Of a DNA stretch of 64,000 bases, positions 30,070 through 38,490 are shown piece after piece. Where the stretch lies: NCBI GenBank assembly GCA_030835385.1, contig JAURPI010000040.1, positions 1-64,000 of the forward strand, written 5' to 3'. Position numbers and translations under genes: made by a program. Position 1 is the first letter of the stretch; each line of letters begins with the position of its first letter. Below the pieces are notes generated by a model. The model searched no databases and was not told where the DNA came from. It saw nothing but the letters and a program-made list of their open reading frames with translations. The DNA is from Alphaproteobacteria bacterium. GTDB taxonomy: Bacteria > Pseudomonadota > Alphaproteobacteria > Rhodospirillales > Rhodospirillaceae.

Positions 30070-30108
30070 AAGGGCGTCCCTATAAGTGGGGGCGCCCTTT
30101 CTTTTACT
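30070..30108. terminator. Terminator between amt and the DUF983/cox operon
   Basis: AAGGGCGTCCC (30070-30080) pairs with GGGGCGCCCTT (30089-30099) with one T-G pair, followed by TCTTTT. It lies between converging genes and may serve both. Confidence 0.8.
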
Positions 30109-30493
30109 TTTGGCCAGGCTTGTCGATGTGCTCGACATCGCGGTGACGATACTGCAATGCAATCATGACCGCTTTTACTGGGCGAAGGGTGATCATAACG
30201 GCCACTAAGATTACCAGTGGCCATAGAGTCATATGCACCCACATTGGCGGTCGGAAAGCGTTGTCTGTTAAGAGTGCAAGTACTGCAACGATGATGCACA
30301 GTGGCAGCATTATAAAAAAGGCAGGGCCATCGCCCGTGTCATGGCCCGCTAGACCAAGTCCACAAGAAGAACAAGATTTCCCAACTGTCAGGTAGCTGTC
30401 ATACAGGCTGCCTTCGCCACAGCGAGGACATCGCGCGGTAAAGGCAACCCGCATAAGCGAGACAGATTGGTCCGAAGACTCGTCGGTATTCAC
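30104..30493 (-). CDS. DUF983 family membrane protein
   Basis: A 129-residue protein with a zinc-ribbon-like start (CPRCGEGSLYDSYL, then CSSCGLGL) and two membrane helices. It is the usual partner of alphaproteobacterial cox operons, where it is the last gene. Its function is not established; an assembly role for the oxidase is generally assumed. It lies 33 bases after coxC on the same strand. Confidence 0.85.
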   Translation of the reverse strand: MNTDESSDQSVSLMRVAFTARCPRCGEGSLYDSYLTVGKSCSSCGLGLAGHDTGDGPAFFIMLPLCIIVAVLALLTDNAFRPPMWVHMTLWPLVILVAVMITLRPVKAVMIALQYRHRDVEHIDKPGQK

Positions 30494-30526: not shown

Positions 30527-31348
30527 CTAGAAAGTTCGTACAGGGGTGCCGAGCAGCCAGTAGACCCAGACAAACAAGAACAGCCAGACCACGTCAACGA
30601 AGTGCCAATACCAAGCGGCAGATTGGAACCCGATGTGTTTTTCAGCACTGAACTGGTTCTTCTGGGCGCGCATTGCGCAGACAATCAGGAAGGTCGTTCC
30701 GACGAAGACGTGGAACCCGTGGAATCCTGTTGCGAGGTAGAAGGTCGACGGATAAATGCCGTCACTTAGGCCAAACGCTGCGTGTCCATATTCGAAAGCC
30801 TGTAGACCGAGGAAGAGGACGCCAAGAATGGCTGTTATCCAGGTCCATTTTGCTGCTTTTTGGTTCATGCCTGCCTCGATATAGAGGTGAGCACGTGTGA
30901 CGGTTATGCCGGAAGTCAGCAGGATGACCGTGTTGTAGAACGGCAGGTGCCACGCATCGAGGACTTCAATGCCCTCGGGCGGCCATTGCATCGTTGCAGT
31001 GGAGAAGCCCAATGAATGATGGAAAAACGCCCAGAAAAACGCCGCGAAGAACATCACTTCAGAGGCGATAAACAGAACCATGCCCATACGAAGGCCGGTG
31101 CTTACTTCATTTGAATGCACGCGTTCTTTGACGGACTCTTTAACAACATCGCGCCACCACAACACCATTGTGAGGACGACAAGAGCTAATCCAGGAGCGA
31201 CTTTGTATACTCCGGGAAGCCCGAGAAAGGCCTCGTCATGGAAATAAAACACCGCTCCAATGGCGAGGAAAAGGGCAGAAAAGGCGCCCATTGCCGGCCA
31301 GGGGCTCGGGTTAACCATGTGATAGGGGTGATTTGCCTGTGCGCTCAT
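30527..31348 (-). CDS. ctaE: Cytochrome c oxidase subunit III
   Basis: A 273-residue subunit III of the aa3-type oxidase with seven membrane helices. HPYHMVNPSPWPAMGAF is the canonical start, EVMFFAAFFWAFFHHSL holds the lipid-binding helix, and FHGFHVFVGTTFL and WHFVDVVWLFLF close it. It supports proton uptake and stability of subunit I. It sits after ctaG in the usual alphaproteobacterial order, with a 31-base gap. Confidence 0.96.
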   Translation of the reverse strand: MSAQANHPYHMVNPSPWPAMGAFSALFLAIGAVFYFHDEAFLGLPGVYKVAPGLALVVLTMVLWWRDVVKESVKERVHSNEVSTGLRMGMVLFIASEVMFFAAFFWAFFHHSLGFSTATMQWPPEGIEVLDAWHLPFYNTVILLTSGITVTRAHLYIEAGMNQKAAKWTWITAILGVLFLGLQAFEYGHAAFGLSDGIYPSTFYLATGFHGFHVFVGTTFLIVCAMRAQKNQFSAEKHIGFQSAAWYWHFVDVVWLFLFVWVYWLLGTPVRTF

Positions 31349-31379: not shown

Positions 31380-31997
31380 TCAGGTACCGCCCAACCGGGC
31401 AGTTGTTAAAACAGTGTCAGCCTGAGAGATAATTTCAGGCTCTTCGTCAGGAATGTCGTCCAGTGTCCGATAGAATGTGTAGGACAATGTGATCGTCTTC
31501 ACATCATTCGCTAATTCATCTTCTAGGATCGCTGGGTCGACAAAAAAGGTCACCGGCATATCCACCGACTGCCCTGGTTCTAGGGTTTGCTCCACAAAGC
31601 AAAAGCATTCGATCTTGGTAAAATACTGTGCGGCCTTAATTGGTGTGACGTTGAAGGTTGAAATACCAGTCACTGGCTCATCAGACAAATTGGTTGATCG
31701 ATAGGACGTCAGGTATTCCGCTCCCAGATTAACCGTGACCGACCGCTCGTTCGGTGCGAAGTCCCAGGGAAGGCTTCGATCAACATTTGCGTCAAACCTC
31801 ACAGTGATTTCTTGTGTCGATACTTCGTGATCACTGCGTTCGGCTACCTGAGGGGTACCGCCGAGCCCAGTCACCTGACAAATCAACGTGTAAAGCGGGA
31901 CGAAGGCAAAGGTCAGCCCGACCATTCCAGCAACCGCGACAAATGCCGTGGCTGCTGTTCGGCGATTGCGCCGGGAAAAGTCCGAGCTGGATGACAT
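31380..31997 (-). CDS. ctaG: Cytochrome c oxidase assembly protein CtaG (Cox11)
   Basis: A 205-residue Cox11 homologue that inserts copper into the CuB site of subunit I. One N-terminal membrane helix (about 15-37, ending FVPLYTLICQVTGLGG) anchors a periplasmic immunoglobulin-like domain. The copper-binding pair is in KIECFCFVEQ (about 128-137). The ATG lies eight bases after the ctaD stop, so the genes are cotranscribed. Its presence implies that the oxidase of this operon carries a normal CuB centre. Confidence 0.95.
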   Translation of the reverse strand: MSSSSDFSRRNRRTAATAFVAVAGMVGLTFAFVPLYTLICQVTGLGGTPQVAERSDHEVSTQEITVRFDANVDRSLPWDFAPNERSVTVNLGAEYLTSYRSTNLSDEPVTGISTFNVTPIKAAQYFTKIECFCFVEQTLEPGQSVDMPVTFFVDPAILEDELANDVKTITLSYTFYRTLDDIPDEEPEIISQADTVLTTARLGGT

Positions 31998-32005
31998 CCT
32001 AGGCT

Positions 32006-34512
<2,507 letters not shown>

Positions 34513-34888: not shown

Positions 34889-35005
34889 ATGACGGACTCA
34901 ACTCCAGATAAACAGAAATTGGTTGTTTTTGGTCTTTGCCTCGCGGGCCTATCAATCTTCATGTACGTCAGTTTTATTGCAAAAGTTGCTTTTGACGGAC
35001 CTTAG
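34889..35005 (+). CDS. Small single-helix protein, CoxF-like (38 aa)
   Basis: The ATG at 34889 follows a strong GGGAGGGAG (34874-34882) and opens a 38-codon frame. The product starts MTDSTPDKQKLVVFGLCLAG and has one membrane helix ending YVSFIAKVAFDGP. Size, charge layout and place fit the short CoxF-type proteins encoded between ctaB and ctaG in many alphaproteobacterial cox operons (K/R-rich start, one helix, F/Y-V-x-x-I-x-K end). Here it instead leads the divergent operon. It was too short for standard frame calling. Confidence 0.65.
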   Translation: MTDSTPDKQKLVVFGLCLAGLSIFMYVSFIAKVAFDGP

Positions 35006-35049: not shown

Positions 35050-35484
35050 ATGACAACGGCTAACGTCTTGCCTCATATCAATGCCGCCTTGAACAGCATC
35101 GCCACCGTGTTGCTGTTGATTGGTTTTGTGCTGATCAAATCGGGTCGGAAACAGGCCCATCGCAAAACCATGACCGCCGCGATTGTCGTGTCAGCCATAT
35201 TCCTAGTGTCATATTTGGCCTATCATTTCACCGCGCCGATCTTTGTGTTTCCTGGCACAGGGTGGGCTGTGCCAGCCTATTACACATTGCTTATTTCGCA
35301 TGTGGTTTTGGCGACCGTTGTGTCTCCTATGGTCGTGGTCACAGCATGGCGCGCCTTTCATGGCGACTTTGATCGTCACAAAGTGATCGCCCGCTGGACC
35401 TGGCCGGTTTGGATGTTTGTGTCAGTATCCGGGGTCGCAGTTTATGCGATCCTATATCATGTCTATCCCGCGCCCGTGTCTTAA
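35050..35484 (+). CDS. DUF420 family membrane protein (CtaM/YozB-like)
   Basis: A 144-residue protein with four membrane helices and conserved His and Tyr: LPHINAALNSIATVLLLIGF, then SYLAYHFT, then YYTLLISHVVLATVV, then YHVYPAP. This is DUF420; the Bacillus member CtaM is needed for activity of certain haem-copper oxidases. It starts 44 bases after the small-helix gene and precedes an oxidase-like gene, so an assembly role for one of the oxidases is a fair inference. Confidence 0.85.
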   Translation: MTTANVLPHINAALNSIATVLLLIGFVLIKSGRKQAHRKTMTAAIVVSAIFLVSYLAYHFTAPIFVFPGTGWAVPAYYTLLISHVVLATVVSPMVVVTAWRAFHGDFDRHKVIARWTWPVWMFVSVSGVAVYAILYHVYPAPVS

Positions 35485-35500
35485 GCCTAGATAGGCAATT

Positions 35501-36967
35501 ATGAGCTTTCACCTTCCTCCACCGAAAGAGCACGACTTGGGGACGCCTGAAGCGGCTATAGATGGCCATTTCGCTGGGCGTCTCACCGATGATATTTTGT
35601 GGGAACTCAAAGGCTGGGTGATTTTGCCTGTGGCCGCCTTGGCGATCGCTGGGCTAATGGCGGTGCTGGTGGCGCTGCTCCGTGTTCCGGGCGTGGAGTC
35701 AATTCTGCGTTGGACATCGCAGACATTTTTTGTGAAGGGGCTCATCGCTCACGTTACCTTTGCTTTCGTCATTTGGTATCTCGGCGTGCAGGGGGCGCTA
35801 ACTGTTCTAGTGACCGCGGCTACTGGTCCTATGACAAAAGGGGCCGCCTTCGTCGGTCGTGTCGGATTATCTGCCGCTGGGCTAAGCTTTCTGCTCATTT
35901 TGACGCCGGTTCTGCTTAATTTGGGTGAGCCGTCAGCCAACAACTACATACCTGTTTTAATTCACCCAATATTCTTTGCGGGGTTGACGTTGTTGGCGCT
36001 CGGGTTGGCGCTTCCAGTGATTCGACTATTGGCGCAAGTTGCGGGTGAGCGATCATGTGAACCGGTTGTGTTCGCAGTCGCGGCGTCTGGTGTGATCTTT
36101 CTCATCGCGCTGGTGTGTCTTGCTGCGGCGTGGTGGACGATGCCGGTGGGCACGCCGGCCACTGATGCCGCGGAGCGAGCGTTCTGGGGTATGGGGCACA
36201 TCATGCAGTTCGCCAACACTTTGCTTCTATTAATCGGGTTCTATCTTCTCAGCCGGATGTCGCTCGGTGAAACACCTGTATCCGATCGTGTTTTCAAGAT
36301 TGTTGCCGCGGCTATGGTGGCGGGCGCTGCCATCGGCCCTCTGTTCTATTTGAGTTTCCCCGCTGACGATCCGTCACAGGTCAACGCATTCACAGACCTC
36401 TACTGGTATGTCCTTCCTGTCCCCGCCGGGGTGGTGTTGCTTGGAACTGTTGTCCTGTTTCTTCGCCGGGCCCGCGACGTAATGAATCAGACGCCGGAGG
36501 TCATTGGTATTTGGGTGGCGCTTCTGTTGTTTGGTTTCGGAGGTCTCATAGGTTTTTTTGAAAGTTCCGTGGATACACGGACGCCAGCTCACTACCACGC
36601 AGAGCTTATCGCTGTGACCCTGGTGTTTATGTGTCTGTATTTCGCGCTATTCGCGCAGTTGCTTGATCGACCCTTACCGGCCAGGAAATGGCGTATAGCG
36701 TCCTATGTTTTGCTTGGGGCGGGCCAACTTTTTCATTCTGTTGGGCTATTTTCGGCTGGGTTGGACGGTGTGGCCCGCAAGGTCGCAGGTGGTGAACAAG
36801 GGCTGGATAGTGCGACAAAACTGTCGTCTATGGCGTTTATGGGGCTCGGTGGTCTAATCGCAGTGATCGGTGGAGTGATATTTGTCGTTTTGGCAATCCG
36901 CTGTTTTTTGATACAACCCACGAAAGACGCGCCGGACACGTTAGAGCAAACGGTCGATCCGGCTTAA
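35501..36967 (+). CDS. Haem-copper-oxidase-like membrane protein lacking CuB ligands
   Basis: A 488-residue protein with about 12 helices, distantly like cytochrome oxidase subunit I. Equivalents are His84 in LIAHVTFAFVIWYLGVQGAL (TM2 haem His), His233 in GMGHIMQFANT (TM6, where HPEVY is expected), His364 and His366 in AHYHAELIAVT (TM10 pair, compare AHFHYVLS) and QLFHSVGLFSAGLDGVARK (the following loop). The TM6 Tyr is gone and no His-His pair appears before TM8. Haem binding is therefore plausible and CuB-based oxygen reduction is not. It lies between DUF420 and ctaB. Databases may call such proteins cbb3-type subunit I; the role is unknown. Confidence 0.7.
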   Translation: MSFHLPPPKEHDLGTPEAAIDGHFAGRLTDDILWELKGWVILPVAALAIAGLMAVLVALLRVPGVESILRWTSQTFFVKGLIAHVTFAFVIWYLGVQGALTVLVTAATGPMTKGAAFVGRVGLSAAGLSFLLILTPVLLNLGEPSANNYIPVLIHPIFFAGLTLLALGLALPVIRLLAQVAGERSCEPVVFAVAASGVIFLIALVCLAAAWWTMPVGTPATDAAERAFWGMGHIMQFANTLLLLIGFYLLSRMSLGETPVSDRVFKIVAAAMVAGAAIGPLFYLSFPADDPSQVNAFTDLYWYVLPVPAGVVLLGTVVLFLRRARDVMNQTPEVIGIWVALLLFGFGGLIGFFESSVDTRTPAHYHAELIAVTLVFMCLYFALFAQLLDRPLPARKWRIASYVLLGAGQLFHSVGLFSAGLDGVARKVAGGEQGLDSATKLSSMAFMGLGGLIAVIGGVIFVVLAIRCFLIQPTKDAPDTLEQTVDPA

Positions 36968-36987: not shown

Positions 36988-37854
36988 ATGACGCTTTCCC
37001 GATATATTGAGTTATTGAAGCTACGTATTGGTGTTCTGCTCGCGATTACAGCGATGGCGGGATACTTTGCAGTAGCAGAGACTGTTCAGTGGGGGCCGCT
37101 GCTGGCCGTCGTGGTAGCGATGCTTCTCTGCTCTTCTGGATCTTCTGTTTTTAATCATTTTTATGATCGTGACATTGATCAGAAGATGGAGCGTACCCGC
37201 AACCGGCCCTTGGCGTCGGGAGCGATGCATGATCCAAATTTAGCGTTATGGCTTGCAGGCGGTCTTTTGGTTGCAGGCTGCGCTTTTGCTGCTGTTGCCT
37301 TGAACTGGGTGGTTGCATTGCACCTTGCCCTCGGCGCTTTTACCTACATGGTCGTTTATACGGTGTGGCTGAAGCGGCGCCATTGGATGAACATTGTCAT
37401 CGGCGGCGCGGCAGGTAGCTTTCCCGTCTTGGCTGGGGCGGCGGCAGCAGACCCTAGCGCCTTCACGTTACCAATGCTGATGGCCATTACGTTGTTTCTT
37501 TGGACGCCCTCACATTTCTGGGCGCTGGCGATGATGATCAAAGACGATTACGCCAAAGCAGGTGTGCCGATGTTGCCGGTCTTGGTTGGCGACGCAAAGT
37601 GCGCCAAATATATGATGGTCAACACCGTATTGTTGGTTGTCTCGGCCGCGCTGCCGGTCGCGTTTGGCGAACTAGGCCTCGTTTATTTTGCCATTAGCAG
37701 CGCACTCAGTCTTCGGTTCTTGTGGCTCAATTGGAAACTTGTTCTAGATCCAAGCAAAGCTTTAGCGCGGAAAATATTCTTATTTTCCATGAGTTACTTG
37801 GCCGTCGTCTTTGTGGCCATCGTGCTAGACCGCAACCTACCGCTACAGTTCTGA
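36988..37854 (+). CDS. ctaB: Protohaem IX farnesyltransferase (haem O synthase)
   Basis: A 288-residue UbiA-family prenyltransferase with about nine helices that converts haem b to haem o, the precursor of haem a for the aa3 oxidase. The first Asp-rich motif is NHFYDRDIDQKMERTRNRPL (about 56-75), and the second region is KDDYAKAGVPMLPV. It normally sits inside the coxBA operon in alphaproteobacteria; here it is in the divergent operon, 20 bases after the oxidase-like gene. Confidence 0.95.
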   Translation: MTLSRYIELLKLRIGVLLAITAMAGYFAVAETVQWGPLLAVVVAMLLCSSGSSVFNHFYDRDIDQKMERTRNRPLASGAMHDPNLALWLAGGLLVAGCAFAAVALNWVVALHLALGAFTYMVVYTVWLKRRHWMNIVIGGAAGSFPVLAGAAAADPSAFTLPMLMAITLFLWTPSHFWALAMMIKDDYAKAGVPMLPVLVGDAKCAKYMMVNTVLLVVSAALPVAFGELGLVYFAISSALSLRFLWLNWKLVLDPSKALARKIFLFSMSYLAVVFVAIVLDRNLPLQF

Positions 37855-37950
37855 TTTTCCGTTCGGTTGTTGAACAGGCCGACAGAGACAGCAGTGTCTC
37901 TTAACGAAACGGCATACGACATGTCGTTAGATTTTTCATGGAGTATATTG

Positions 37951-38490
37951 ATGCGTGTTTTGAAAGTTTCGGCAATTACTGCTGCATTGCTCAGCTCTGG
38001 CCCCGTGTTTGCCACAGAAATTGTCTGTGACGGGCACGAGGACAATCTCAACACCTACCTTGAGATGACCCGCATCCTGTTTAATGAAAGACAACACGAG
38101 CGAGCCGCTGAGTATTACGCTGACGAATTTATCAGTCACAATGTCGATGGTGGAGGGCTAGGAACTAATGTCCGCACACCCGATCACATGAGCCGAATTT
38201 GGATACACTCAAAAGAGGCGTCTCCTGATCGCCAACTGATCAATGACCTCATTATTTGCCAGGGCGACATTGTCGTGGCGCGCGTTACAATGAAGGGTAC
38301 CCGCGTGACCGGCGAGATGGAAGGCAATCCGCCCAACGGCCGACGTTATGAAACGTCTGCGACTGATACCTATCGTTTTAAAGACGGCAAAGTCATTGAA
38401 CGCTGGGGCAACAACGATAGCATTGCGATGATTCGTCAGCTTGGTCTAAAGGTCGATCTCTCAATGACTCCGCTTCCGTCCGAGGACTAA
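37951..38490 (+). CDS. Exported SnoaL-like (ester cyclase type) protein
   Basis: A 179-residue protein with a Sec signal (about 1-20, ending VFA-T) and an NTF2/SnoaL-like fold. LNTYLEMTRILFNERQ, then AEYYADEFISHN, and the end YRFKDGKVIERWGNNDS are typical. The start at ATG 37951 follows GGAG at 37940-37943; longer in-frame starts would bury the signal peptide. SnoaL relatives include cyclases, hydrolases and binding proteins, so activity cannot be named. It converges on the DUF924 gene. Confidence 0.8.
   Translation: MRVLKVSAITAALLSSGPVFATEIVCDGHEDNLNTYLEMTRILFNERQHERAAEYYADEFISHNVDGGGLGTNVRTPDHMSRIWIHSKEASPDRQLINDLIICQGDIVVARVTMKGTRVTGEMEGNPPNGRRYETSATDTYRFKDGKVIERWGNNDSIAMIRQLGLKVDLSMTPLPSED

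Follow-up and report, generated by a model that had tools for sequence, protein, structure and literature searches.

In the A-type haem-copper oxidases, subunit I (COX1, CtaD) ligates the low-spin haem a through His91 and His407, the high-spin haem a3 through His405 and the copper ion CuB through His270, His319 and His320. Membership of the superfamily is marked by three haem-ligand histidine columns, one on TM2 and a pair on TM10, haem-copper enzymes by a three-histidine metal-B site (one ligand on TM6 and two on TM7), and haem-copper O2 reductases by a cross-linked active-site tyrosine. To our knowledge, the family described below would be the first branch of the superfamily without a metal-B site. 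Another type of subunit I is NorY of the sNOR-type (B-type) family, the genes of which are laid out as norSY-senC in the available passages of two descriptions (PMC6967387; PMC4940428).

The pertinent part of a 2022 review describes the transfer of haem A from CtaA into subunit I as unknown and presents Surf1 as a haem A binding and insertion factor (PMC9145763). A second assembly factor is the DUF420 protein CtaM, which, according to the excerpts at hand of these papers, is needed for aa3 function in S. aureus, not for haem A synthesis (PMC4958251), and is dispensable in Bacillota for haem A synthesis or insertion (PMC9145763; PMC4958251). The review puts CtaM at a late step, perhaps CuB (PMC9145763), and a role in copper export for oxidase assembly has been proposed in B. 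subtilis (PMC13344008). The kinship of DUF420 and CtaA is disputed, with one text for (PMC8239418) and one against (PMC12808453), and ctaM is stated to be absent from Beta- and Gammaproteobacteria (PMC4958251). The available portions of three CtaM accounts (PMC4958251; PMC9145763; PMC13344008) contain no mention of a subunit I-like partner, and in the part of the PMC literature covered, subscription papers and preprints aside, no description was found of a copper-B-less subunit I family.

A subunit I homologue encoded between DUF420 and ctaB

The window, i.e. the whole 64,000-nucleotide stretch of alphaproteobacterial DNA that was analysed, encodes such a protein, here given, together with its homologues, the working name CLX (Table 1). 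Its gene lies 16 bases from the DUF420 gene and 20 bases from ctaB. Divergent from these three genes runs the aa3 operon, which is complete and has the order COX2-COX1-CtaG-COX3-DUF983 (34512-30104). CLX and the aa3 subunit I are the only PF00115 matches in their genome. The window copy of ctaB is the only one in this genome over the model cut-off, a second match (111 bits) being below it, and the operon therefore very likely serves the aa3 oxidase. A dedicated CLX subunit II was sought in the genome without success, the subunit II of aa3 being all that matched, and no Sco gene occurs among the scanned ORFs neighbouring CLX; the CuA subunit II and Sco gene that stand beside sNOR-type subunit I genes are thus both missing from the CLX locus of the window. 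No match to CLX was obtained in plasmid records.

Table 1 Features of the CLX locus, with positions in the window; starts and overlaps are rough, as gene calling relied on a simple ORF script
Feature	Coordinates	Strand	Basis
DUF983 protein, last of aa3 operon	30104..30493	-	Pfam DUF983
aa3 oxidase subunit III	30527..31348	-	Pfam COX3
CtaG/Cox11, CuB insertion factor	31380..31997	-	Pfam CtaG_Cox11
True aa3 oxidase subunit I	32006..33667	-	NCBIfam CtaD_CoxA 4.9e-212
aa3 oxidase subunit II	33664..34512	-	Pfam COX2, NCBIfam CoxB
38-aa single-helix membrane ORF, 5' of DUF420	34889..35005	+	Translation
DUF420 (CtaM family), 144 aa, directly 5' of CLX	35050..35484	+	Pfam PF04238 4.4e-40
CLX, copper-B-less subunit I homologue, 488 aa	35501..36967	+	ORF, ATG start; Pfam COX1
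His84 codon, low-spin haem ligand column, TM2	35750..35752	+	COX1 H91; 99/99 homologues
His233 codon, sole metal-B ligand column kept, TM6, WGxGHxxQ	36197..36199	+	COX1 H270; 98/98
Phe282-Tyr283-Leu284 codons, place of TM7 His-His pair	36344..36352	+	hhalign, COX1 and sNOR-type sets
His364-Tyr-His366 codons, high-spin and low-spin haem columns, TM10	36590..36598	+	COX1 H405/H407; 98/98
Arg426-Lys427 codons, Arg-Arg position	36776..36781	+	Aligned with COX1 PRRY; 98/98
ctaB, haem O synthase	36988..37854	+	TIGR01473 1.9e-83

The 38-residue ORF has a homologous ORF in all six near-relative loci examined and is possibly the first gene of the CLX operon, encoding a small oxidase-cluster protein. 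On the other side, ctaB is followed by a gene for a SnoaL-like protein (37867-38490, + strand), whose position is kept in near relatives and which is doubled in some loci.

The CLX gene is under purifying selection. Compared with three near relatives, dN/dS is 0.073, 0.028 and 0.028, the last two with dS near saturation, and for two more distant relatives, in which dS is saturated, raw proportions give ratios of 0.14 and 0.18. A pseudogene is rejected by the dN/dS values.

Fold and haem-ligand residues

Pfam COX1 (PF00115) matches CLX over residues 40-447 with 44.5 bits (cut-off 34.8, E 1.3e-11) and is the sole Pfam match of the window protein up to E 1, with neither Surf1 (PF02104) nor any extra domain. 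Among NCBIfam models, TIGR02891 (A-type COX1) included, there were zero matches up to E 1. Pfam COX1 was also above cut-off in the four CLX homologues scanned (4/4), and automatic annotation may therefore count CLX proteins as oxidases. A PDB sequence search returned no relative, only a single chance match. For structure prediction with AlphaFold2, 29 aligned sequences were used (alignment A1: the window protein, identical with L001, and 28 of 47 loci, near-duplicates, truncated sequences and those with stops being dropped), giving a model with a mean pLDDT of 83.7 and a pTM of 0.86. Foldseek places it nearest to chains of ba3 oxidase (TM 0.73, E 5e-10), and VIA-align superimposes it on a mitochondrial oxidase (8iuf_C1; Z 30.7, 433 residues, 4.4 A) and a ba3 oxidase (4fa7; Z 30.6, 426 residues, 3.1 A). 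Since VIA-align rows less than 1 Z apart count as tied, the fold does not pick the oxidase type; the tree does. By profile match and predicted structure, CLX has the 12-helix subunit I fold of the haem-copper oxidase/NO reductase superfamily.

Pairwise BLASTP of CLX with the COX1 of the window gives nothing usable (E 0.12), a distance that makes profile alignment necessary. The main alignment holds 99 sequences, the window protein and 98 ORFs, with identities to the window protein down to about 31%; loci repeating the same genes in shorter stretches had been left out, and four of 102 were then removed as duplicates. One row is a contig-edge fragment, so that most counts are out of 98. In the profile-profile alignment (hhalign) with the COX1 set, at 15% identity, His84 pairs with H91, His364 with H405, His366 with H407 and His233 with H270. 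A sequence-only reading of the locus had named all four as haem histidines. This is borne out for His84 (99/99), His364 and His366 (98/98 each); His233 is equally well kept (98/98), but as a former CuB ligand rather than a haem ligand. Tyr365, Arg426 and Lys427 are likewise invariant (98/98), the last two at what we take to be the haem-propionate-binding pair, and Gln236 is kept in 97 of 98 rows.

The metal-B ligands of TM7 are lost, as is the cross-linked tyrosine. The CuB pair His319-His320 of COX1 aligns to Tyr283/Leu284 and the His-His pair of the sNOR-type set to Phe282/Tyr283 in an ungapped stretch, and the exact position of the pair is therefore uncertain by one residue. His-His is found in these columns in none of the 99 rows (0/99), which confirms its reported absence; 19 rows have a lone histidine at column 283, and 49 of the 99, the contig-edge fragment included, have no histidine anywhere in residues 262-304. 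The histidines of the window protein are at 4, 11, 23, 84, 155, 233, 364, 366 and 412. The HPEVY motif of COX1 has indeed become HIMQF, with phenylalanine at H+4. A hidden His-His pair nearby, which would have spoken against the first reading just as haem histidines off their helices would, was looked for and is rejected: HH occurs in only two rows (L166 and L162), about 12 residues beyond the metal-B columns in the following loop. The family thus retains both predicted haem sites and the propionate pair (as Arg-Lys), and the window protein retains one of three metal-B ligands. Sequence, profiles and predicted fold give good support to the proposal of an oxidase-fold protein with two haem sites and no copper B. 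Because the three-histidine metal-B site is missing, CLX is to be called a member of the fold family and not a haem-copper oxidase, and it should not be capable of O2 reduction by the usual binuclear mechanism.

Kinship and spread of the CLX family

The first reading had set CLX against A-type COX1. The fold and the three haem histidines are common to both, but COX1 has the CuB pair, HPEVY and a TIGR02891 match, none of which CLX has, and is only a distant cousin. The closest profile among those compared is that of a family of about 570 residues (23% identity, E 3e-48, ungapped over TM6-TM7), with which CLX shares WGxGHxxQ. This family has the motif WWGxGHSSQQ, an intact TM7 pair (AHHLL) and GHFH, and its neighbours are genes for a CuA subunit II and for Sco. 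We take it to be sNOR-type (NorY of norSY-senC), a label drawn from motif and gene order rather than from comparison with a named NorY; the family is not named by any NCBIfam model. The sNOR-type rows listed keep the TM7 His-His pair that CLX lacks.

In a COX1-rooted tree (about a quarter of the COX1 rows used, two contig-edge rows left out), 97 CLX rows form one group (support 98) beside 17 rows of the ~570-residue family. A second tree, of a hand-picked subset with four CcoN-like and two NorB-like rows (named by motif), seven COX1 rows and no ba3 row, recovers the CLX clade at 100/100 and separates CLX plus the sNOR-type family, with the odd row L209, from COX1, CcoN and NorB at 95/96; CLX does not group with NorB or CcoN. 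The CLX branches are long, and L162, whose branch is very long, may not belong to the family, although it is still counted among the 99 rows and the eight side-clade loci. A simple paralogue of A-type COX1 is rejected by the profiles (15% identity) and both trees. In the trees made, CLX is nearest to the sNOR-type (B-like) family, not to A-type COX1, and it is best explained as a former haem-copper subunit I with sNOR/B-type ancestry from which metal B has been lost. The odd row L209 (G044:C26:68417-69757) is a subunit I protein with a 653-aa frame and PGAFHF on TM10, its high-spin haem histidine apparently replaced; the same stretch encodes a subunit II-like CxxxC protein.

CLX is present in 46 of 61 relatives, its own genome counted, and the named near relatives are mostly Rhodospirillaceae MAGs. 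In a class sample (n=250), a strong match occurs only in the own genome and G112, G158 and G249; the other 11 matching genomes have mostly sNOR-type proteins, with one ordinary COX1 (L062). In a phylum sample, CLX was counted in 41 of 348 genomes at E<1e-50, four of the 45 matching genomes being set aside (G407, a contig-edge fragment, and the weak G543, G567 and G605).

Gene neighbourhoods

Two explanations compete over the gene neighbourhoods of CLX. The one tentatively preferred here, at somewhat short of even confidence, sees in CLX a dihaem membrane protein without copper that takes part in maturing haem-A oxidases. In the other, possible although we consider it doubtful, CLX would be an independent membrane enzyme of electron transfer or small-molecule reduction, namely a dihaem cytochrome fed by CuA, multihaem cytochromes or quinol; ctaA and ctaB would then travel with CLX because CLX itself uses haem O or A. 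Each could hold in different branches of the family.

Across 45 distinct alphaproteobacterial loci with at least 2 kb of flank on each side, DUF420 is adjacent to CLX in 42, ctaB lies within 2 kb in 40, any of DUF420, ctaB and ctaA within 2 kb in 44, and A-type COX1 within 4 kb in 30. In the window's order, the DUF420-CLX-ctaB group often diverges from the aa3 genes. A second set comprises 27 loci, namely L102 of the window's own class and loci from other classes (those of the same phylum as the window but a different class). Here, ctaA is found within 200 nt of CLX in 13 (rough chance ~0.5%) and any of the three genes within 2 kb in 16; the remaining 11 have none, three of them being inside sNOR-type clusters. 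CLX genes near or inside such clusters are L046, L047, L164 and L166. At the eight side-clade loci with enough flank, DUF420, ctaB and ctaA are all absent nearby. CLX thus does not always accompany DUF420-ctaB, although this is the rule in the window's order; elsewhere the partners are ctaA, sNOR-type clusters or none within 2 kb, and a strict dependency is rejected by these counts.

The DUF420, ctaB and ctaA neighbours argue for maturation, an argument weakened by the 11 second-set loci and the side clade that are without them. It is weakened further by a CuA subunit II gene, always with CxxxCxxxHxxM, directly 3' of CLX in seven of the 45 alphaproteobacterial loci, as this suits an enzyme better than a chaperone. 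In f181, a family of another class, a CuA subunit II gene lies at most 3 kb upstream on the same strand in five of eight loci, which also favours an enzyme, as does the presence of ctaB in some sNOR-type operons and, in the side clade, the case of L155, which has TPR repeats and is accompanied by a multihaem cytochrome c and by genes for cytochrome c assembly. Against an enzyme, most CLX loci are without a subunit II and the own genome has only that of aa3, no metal-B site is available for O2 or NO chemistry, and in the window's order no partner is more constant than DUF420, an oxidase assembly factor elsewhere.

Several loci have features of their own. The side-clade proteins (L152-L160) are mostly long; in L155, the one annotated, the TPR repeats form a C-terminal extension and the neighbouring genes include ResB and CcsA. 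The sNOR-type cluster holding CLX in L046 encodes a fusion of cytochrome b with ferredoxin and FlpD-like domains (L046:5799-7367). Outside the window's class but within its phylum, DUF420 genes also occur close to CLX (L165:11474-11932 and L134), although ctaM is stated to be missing from Beta- and Gammaproteobacteria (PMC4958251).

Co-occurrence with haem A synthase, A-type oxidase and Surf1

Haem A synthase (CtaA) is found in 45 of 46 relatives with CLX vs 4 of 15 without (Fisher 4e-8), and DUF420 in 43 of 46 vs 1 of 15 (Fisher 4e-10). In the phylum sample the corresponding figures for CtaA are 39/41 vs 207/307 (Fisher 8e-5); all three tests are uncorrected for kinship. Within f181, the 11 CLX-bearing genomes all have CtaA (11/11), and five CtaA-lacking genomes, among those listed, are outside the CLX matches. 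Of the functions first listed for CLX, the tie to haem A and the aa3 oxidase is hence the best supported, by this co-occurrence and by the ctaB, DUF420 and ctaA neighbours. The maturation reading is weakened by the CLX-bearing genomes G003, G378 and G414 (side clade), in which CtaA was not found, and by the rarity of CLX in the class sample.

The search for A-type oxidase took in 63 of 88 CLX-bearing genomes, the G407 fragment included, and gave 56 matches at the set E-value, of which that of G414 (75 bits) is sNOR-like and was not counted. A-type COX1 is accordingly present in 55 of the 63 and absent in eight (G044, G325, G341, G353, G357, G392, G407 and G414), which likewise weakens a role in maturation. 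G341 has CtaA, and its only PF00115 matches are cbb3 and CLX. This speaks for an enzyme, but G341 is a draft genome, and its aa3 may therefore be missing from the assembly.

Surf1 (PF02104) was not found in the own genome and occurs in only two of the 61 relatives (G040 and G049), in both directly 3' of DUF420-CLX-ctaB. In 14 control genomes, DUF420 occurs in four, Surf1 in two, both in none and neither in eight. Surf1 is unrelated in sequence to CLX, and two genomes carry both, but its role, as the review passage (PMC9145763) gives it, is possibly like that of CLX in an order nearly without Surf1. The scarcity of Surf1 is consistent with a Surf1-independent route for haem A in the window's order, without pointing to CLX in particular, because four CtaA-bearing relatives (G020, G021, G039 and G043) have neither CLX nor Surf1; CLX is therefore not required, and the absence of Surf1 is an order-wide trait. 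In G020, of the same family as the window, DUF420, ctaB and ctaA stand in a row without CLX (G020:C2:8524-11011).

The DUF420 partner

The DUF420 neighbour belongs to the CtaM family, to which CLX itself is unrelated. His9, His37, His84 and His110 are invariant in 26 sequences, and the model of the DUF420 protein has four helices (pLDDT 92). It superposes best on four-helix designs and on oxidase subunit III, over the last four helices of the latter, at Z ~11-14, a range in which the tool warns of a merely common helical-bundle arrangement; CtaA is absent among the best 50. The dispensability of CtaM for haem A synthesis and insertion in Bacillota argues against a purely haem-side CLX module, and the CLX operon may have a part in the supply of both haem and copper.

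Possible functions of CLX

For the preferred role in maturation, the main arguments are the family-wide invariance of the haem ligands and the Arg/Lys pair, the loss of the TM7 metal-B ligands throughout, a predicted fold that matches solved oxidases over about 425 residues, the neighbouring genes with the CtaA co-occurrence, and the position of the two Surf1 genes. Haem occupancy is inferred, the anatomy of the sites being deduced from sequence and predicted fold: a bis-histidine low-spin haem would be held by His84 and His366, and a high-spin haem by His364 alone, with an open distal pocket (His233 and Gln236). CLX would stand in line with CtaB, CtaA and apo-COX1, and would either exchange electrons with the steps that convert haem O to A and insert the metal, or keep newly made haem ready for transfer, electron exchange being slightly ahead because the sites appear buried and invariant. 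In the window's lineage it would act with DUF420 (CtaM) in a Surf1-independent route. The full evolutionary version, in which a branch of the superfamily gave up copper, turned to maturation and, as a dihaem partner of haem O/A synthesis in redox or haem relay, now provides for haem-A oxidases together with DUF420 in bacteria that lack Surf1, is rather unlikely to be right as a whole.

Improbable, to a greater degree than an independent enzyme, is that the aa3 oxidase itself has CLX as an accessory subunit or a partner that stabilises it, rather than as a maturation factor. Its place divergent from or in the same cluster as aa3, with A-type COX1 close by at two thirds of the alphaproteobacterial loci, would suit this role. 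However, CLX persists in the eight genomes without A-type COX1, is often found, in the second set, in the company of ctaA and at a distance from COX1, and would be a costly scaffold with its full subunit I fold and intact haem sites. A haem-based O2 or NO sensor or buffer of the oxidase pathway is very improbable. The predicted open high-spin site could bind O2 or NO in the absence of metal B, but the window protein carries no further domain (TPR repeats are found in L155) and no finding points to a sensor. A degenerate oxidase gene that survives as a relic has next to no probability despite the lost catalytic residues, given dN/dS of 0.028-0.073, invariant haem-site residues across 99 sequences and a conserved operon.

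Significance

CLX is a conserved, oxidase-derived candidate gene for the question of how haem A is delivered from CtaA to subunit I. If a role in maturation is true, CLX would be a candidate for the step in which haem A, or the electrons for making it, reach the apo-oxidase. The family would also be an example of selection maintaining the haem-copper fold for purposes beyond the reduction of O2 or NO.
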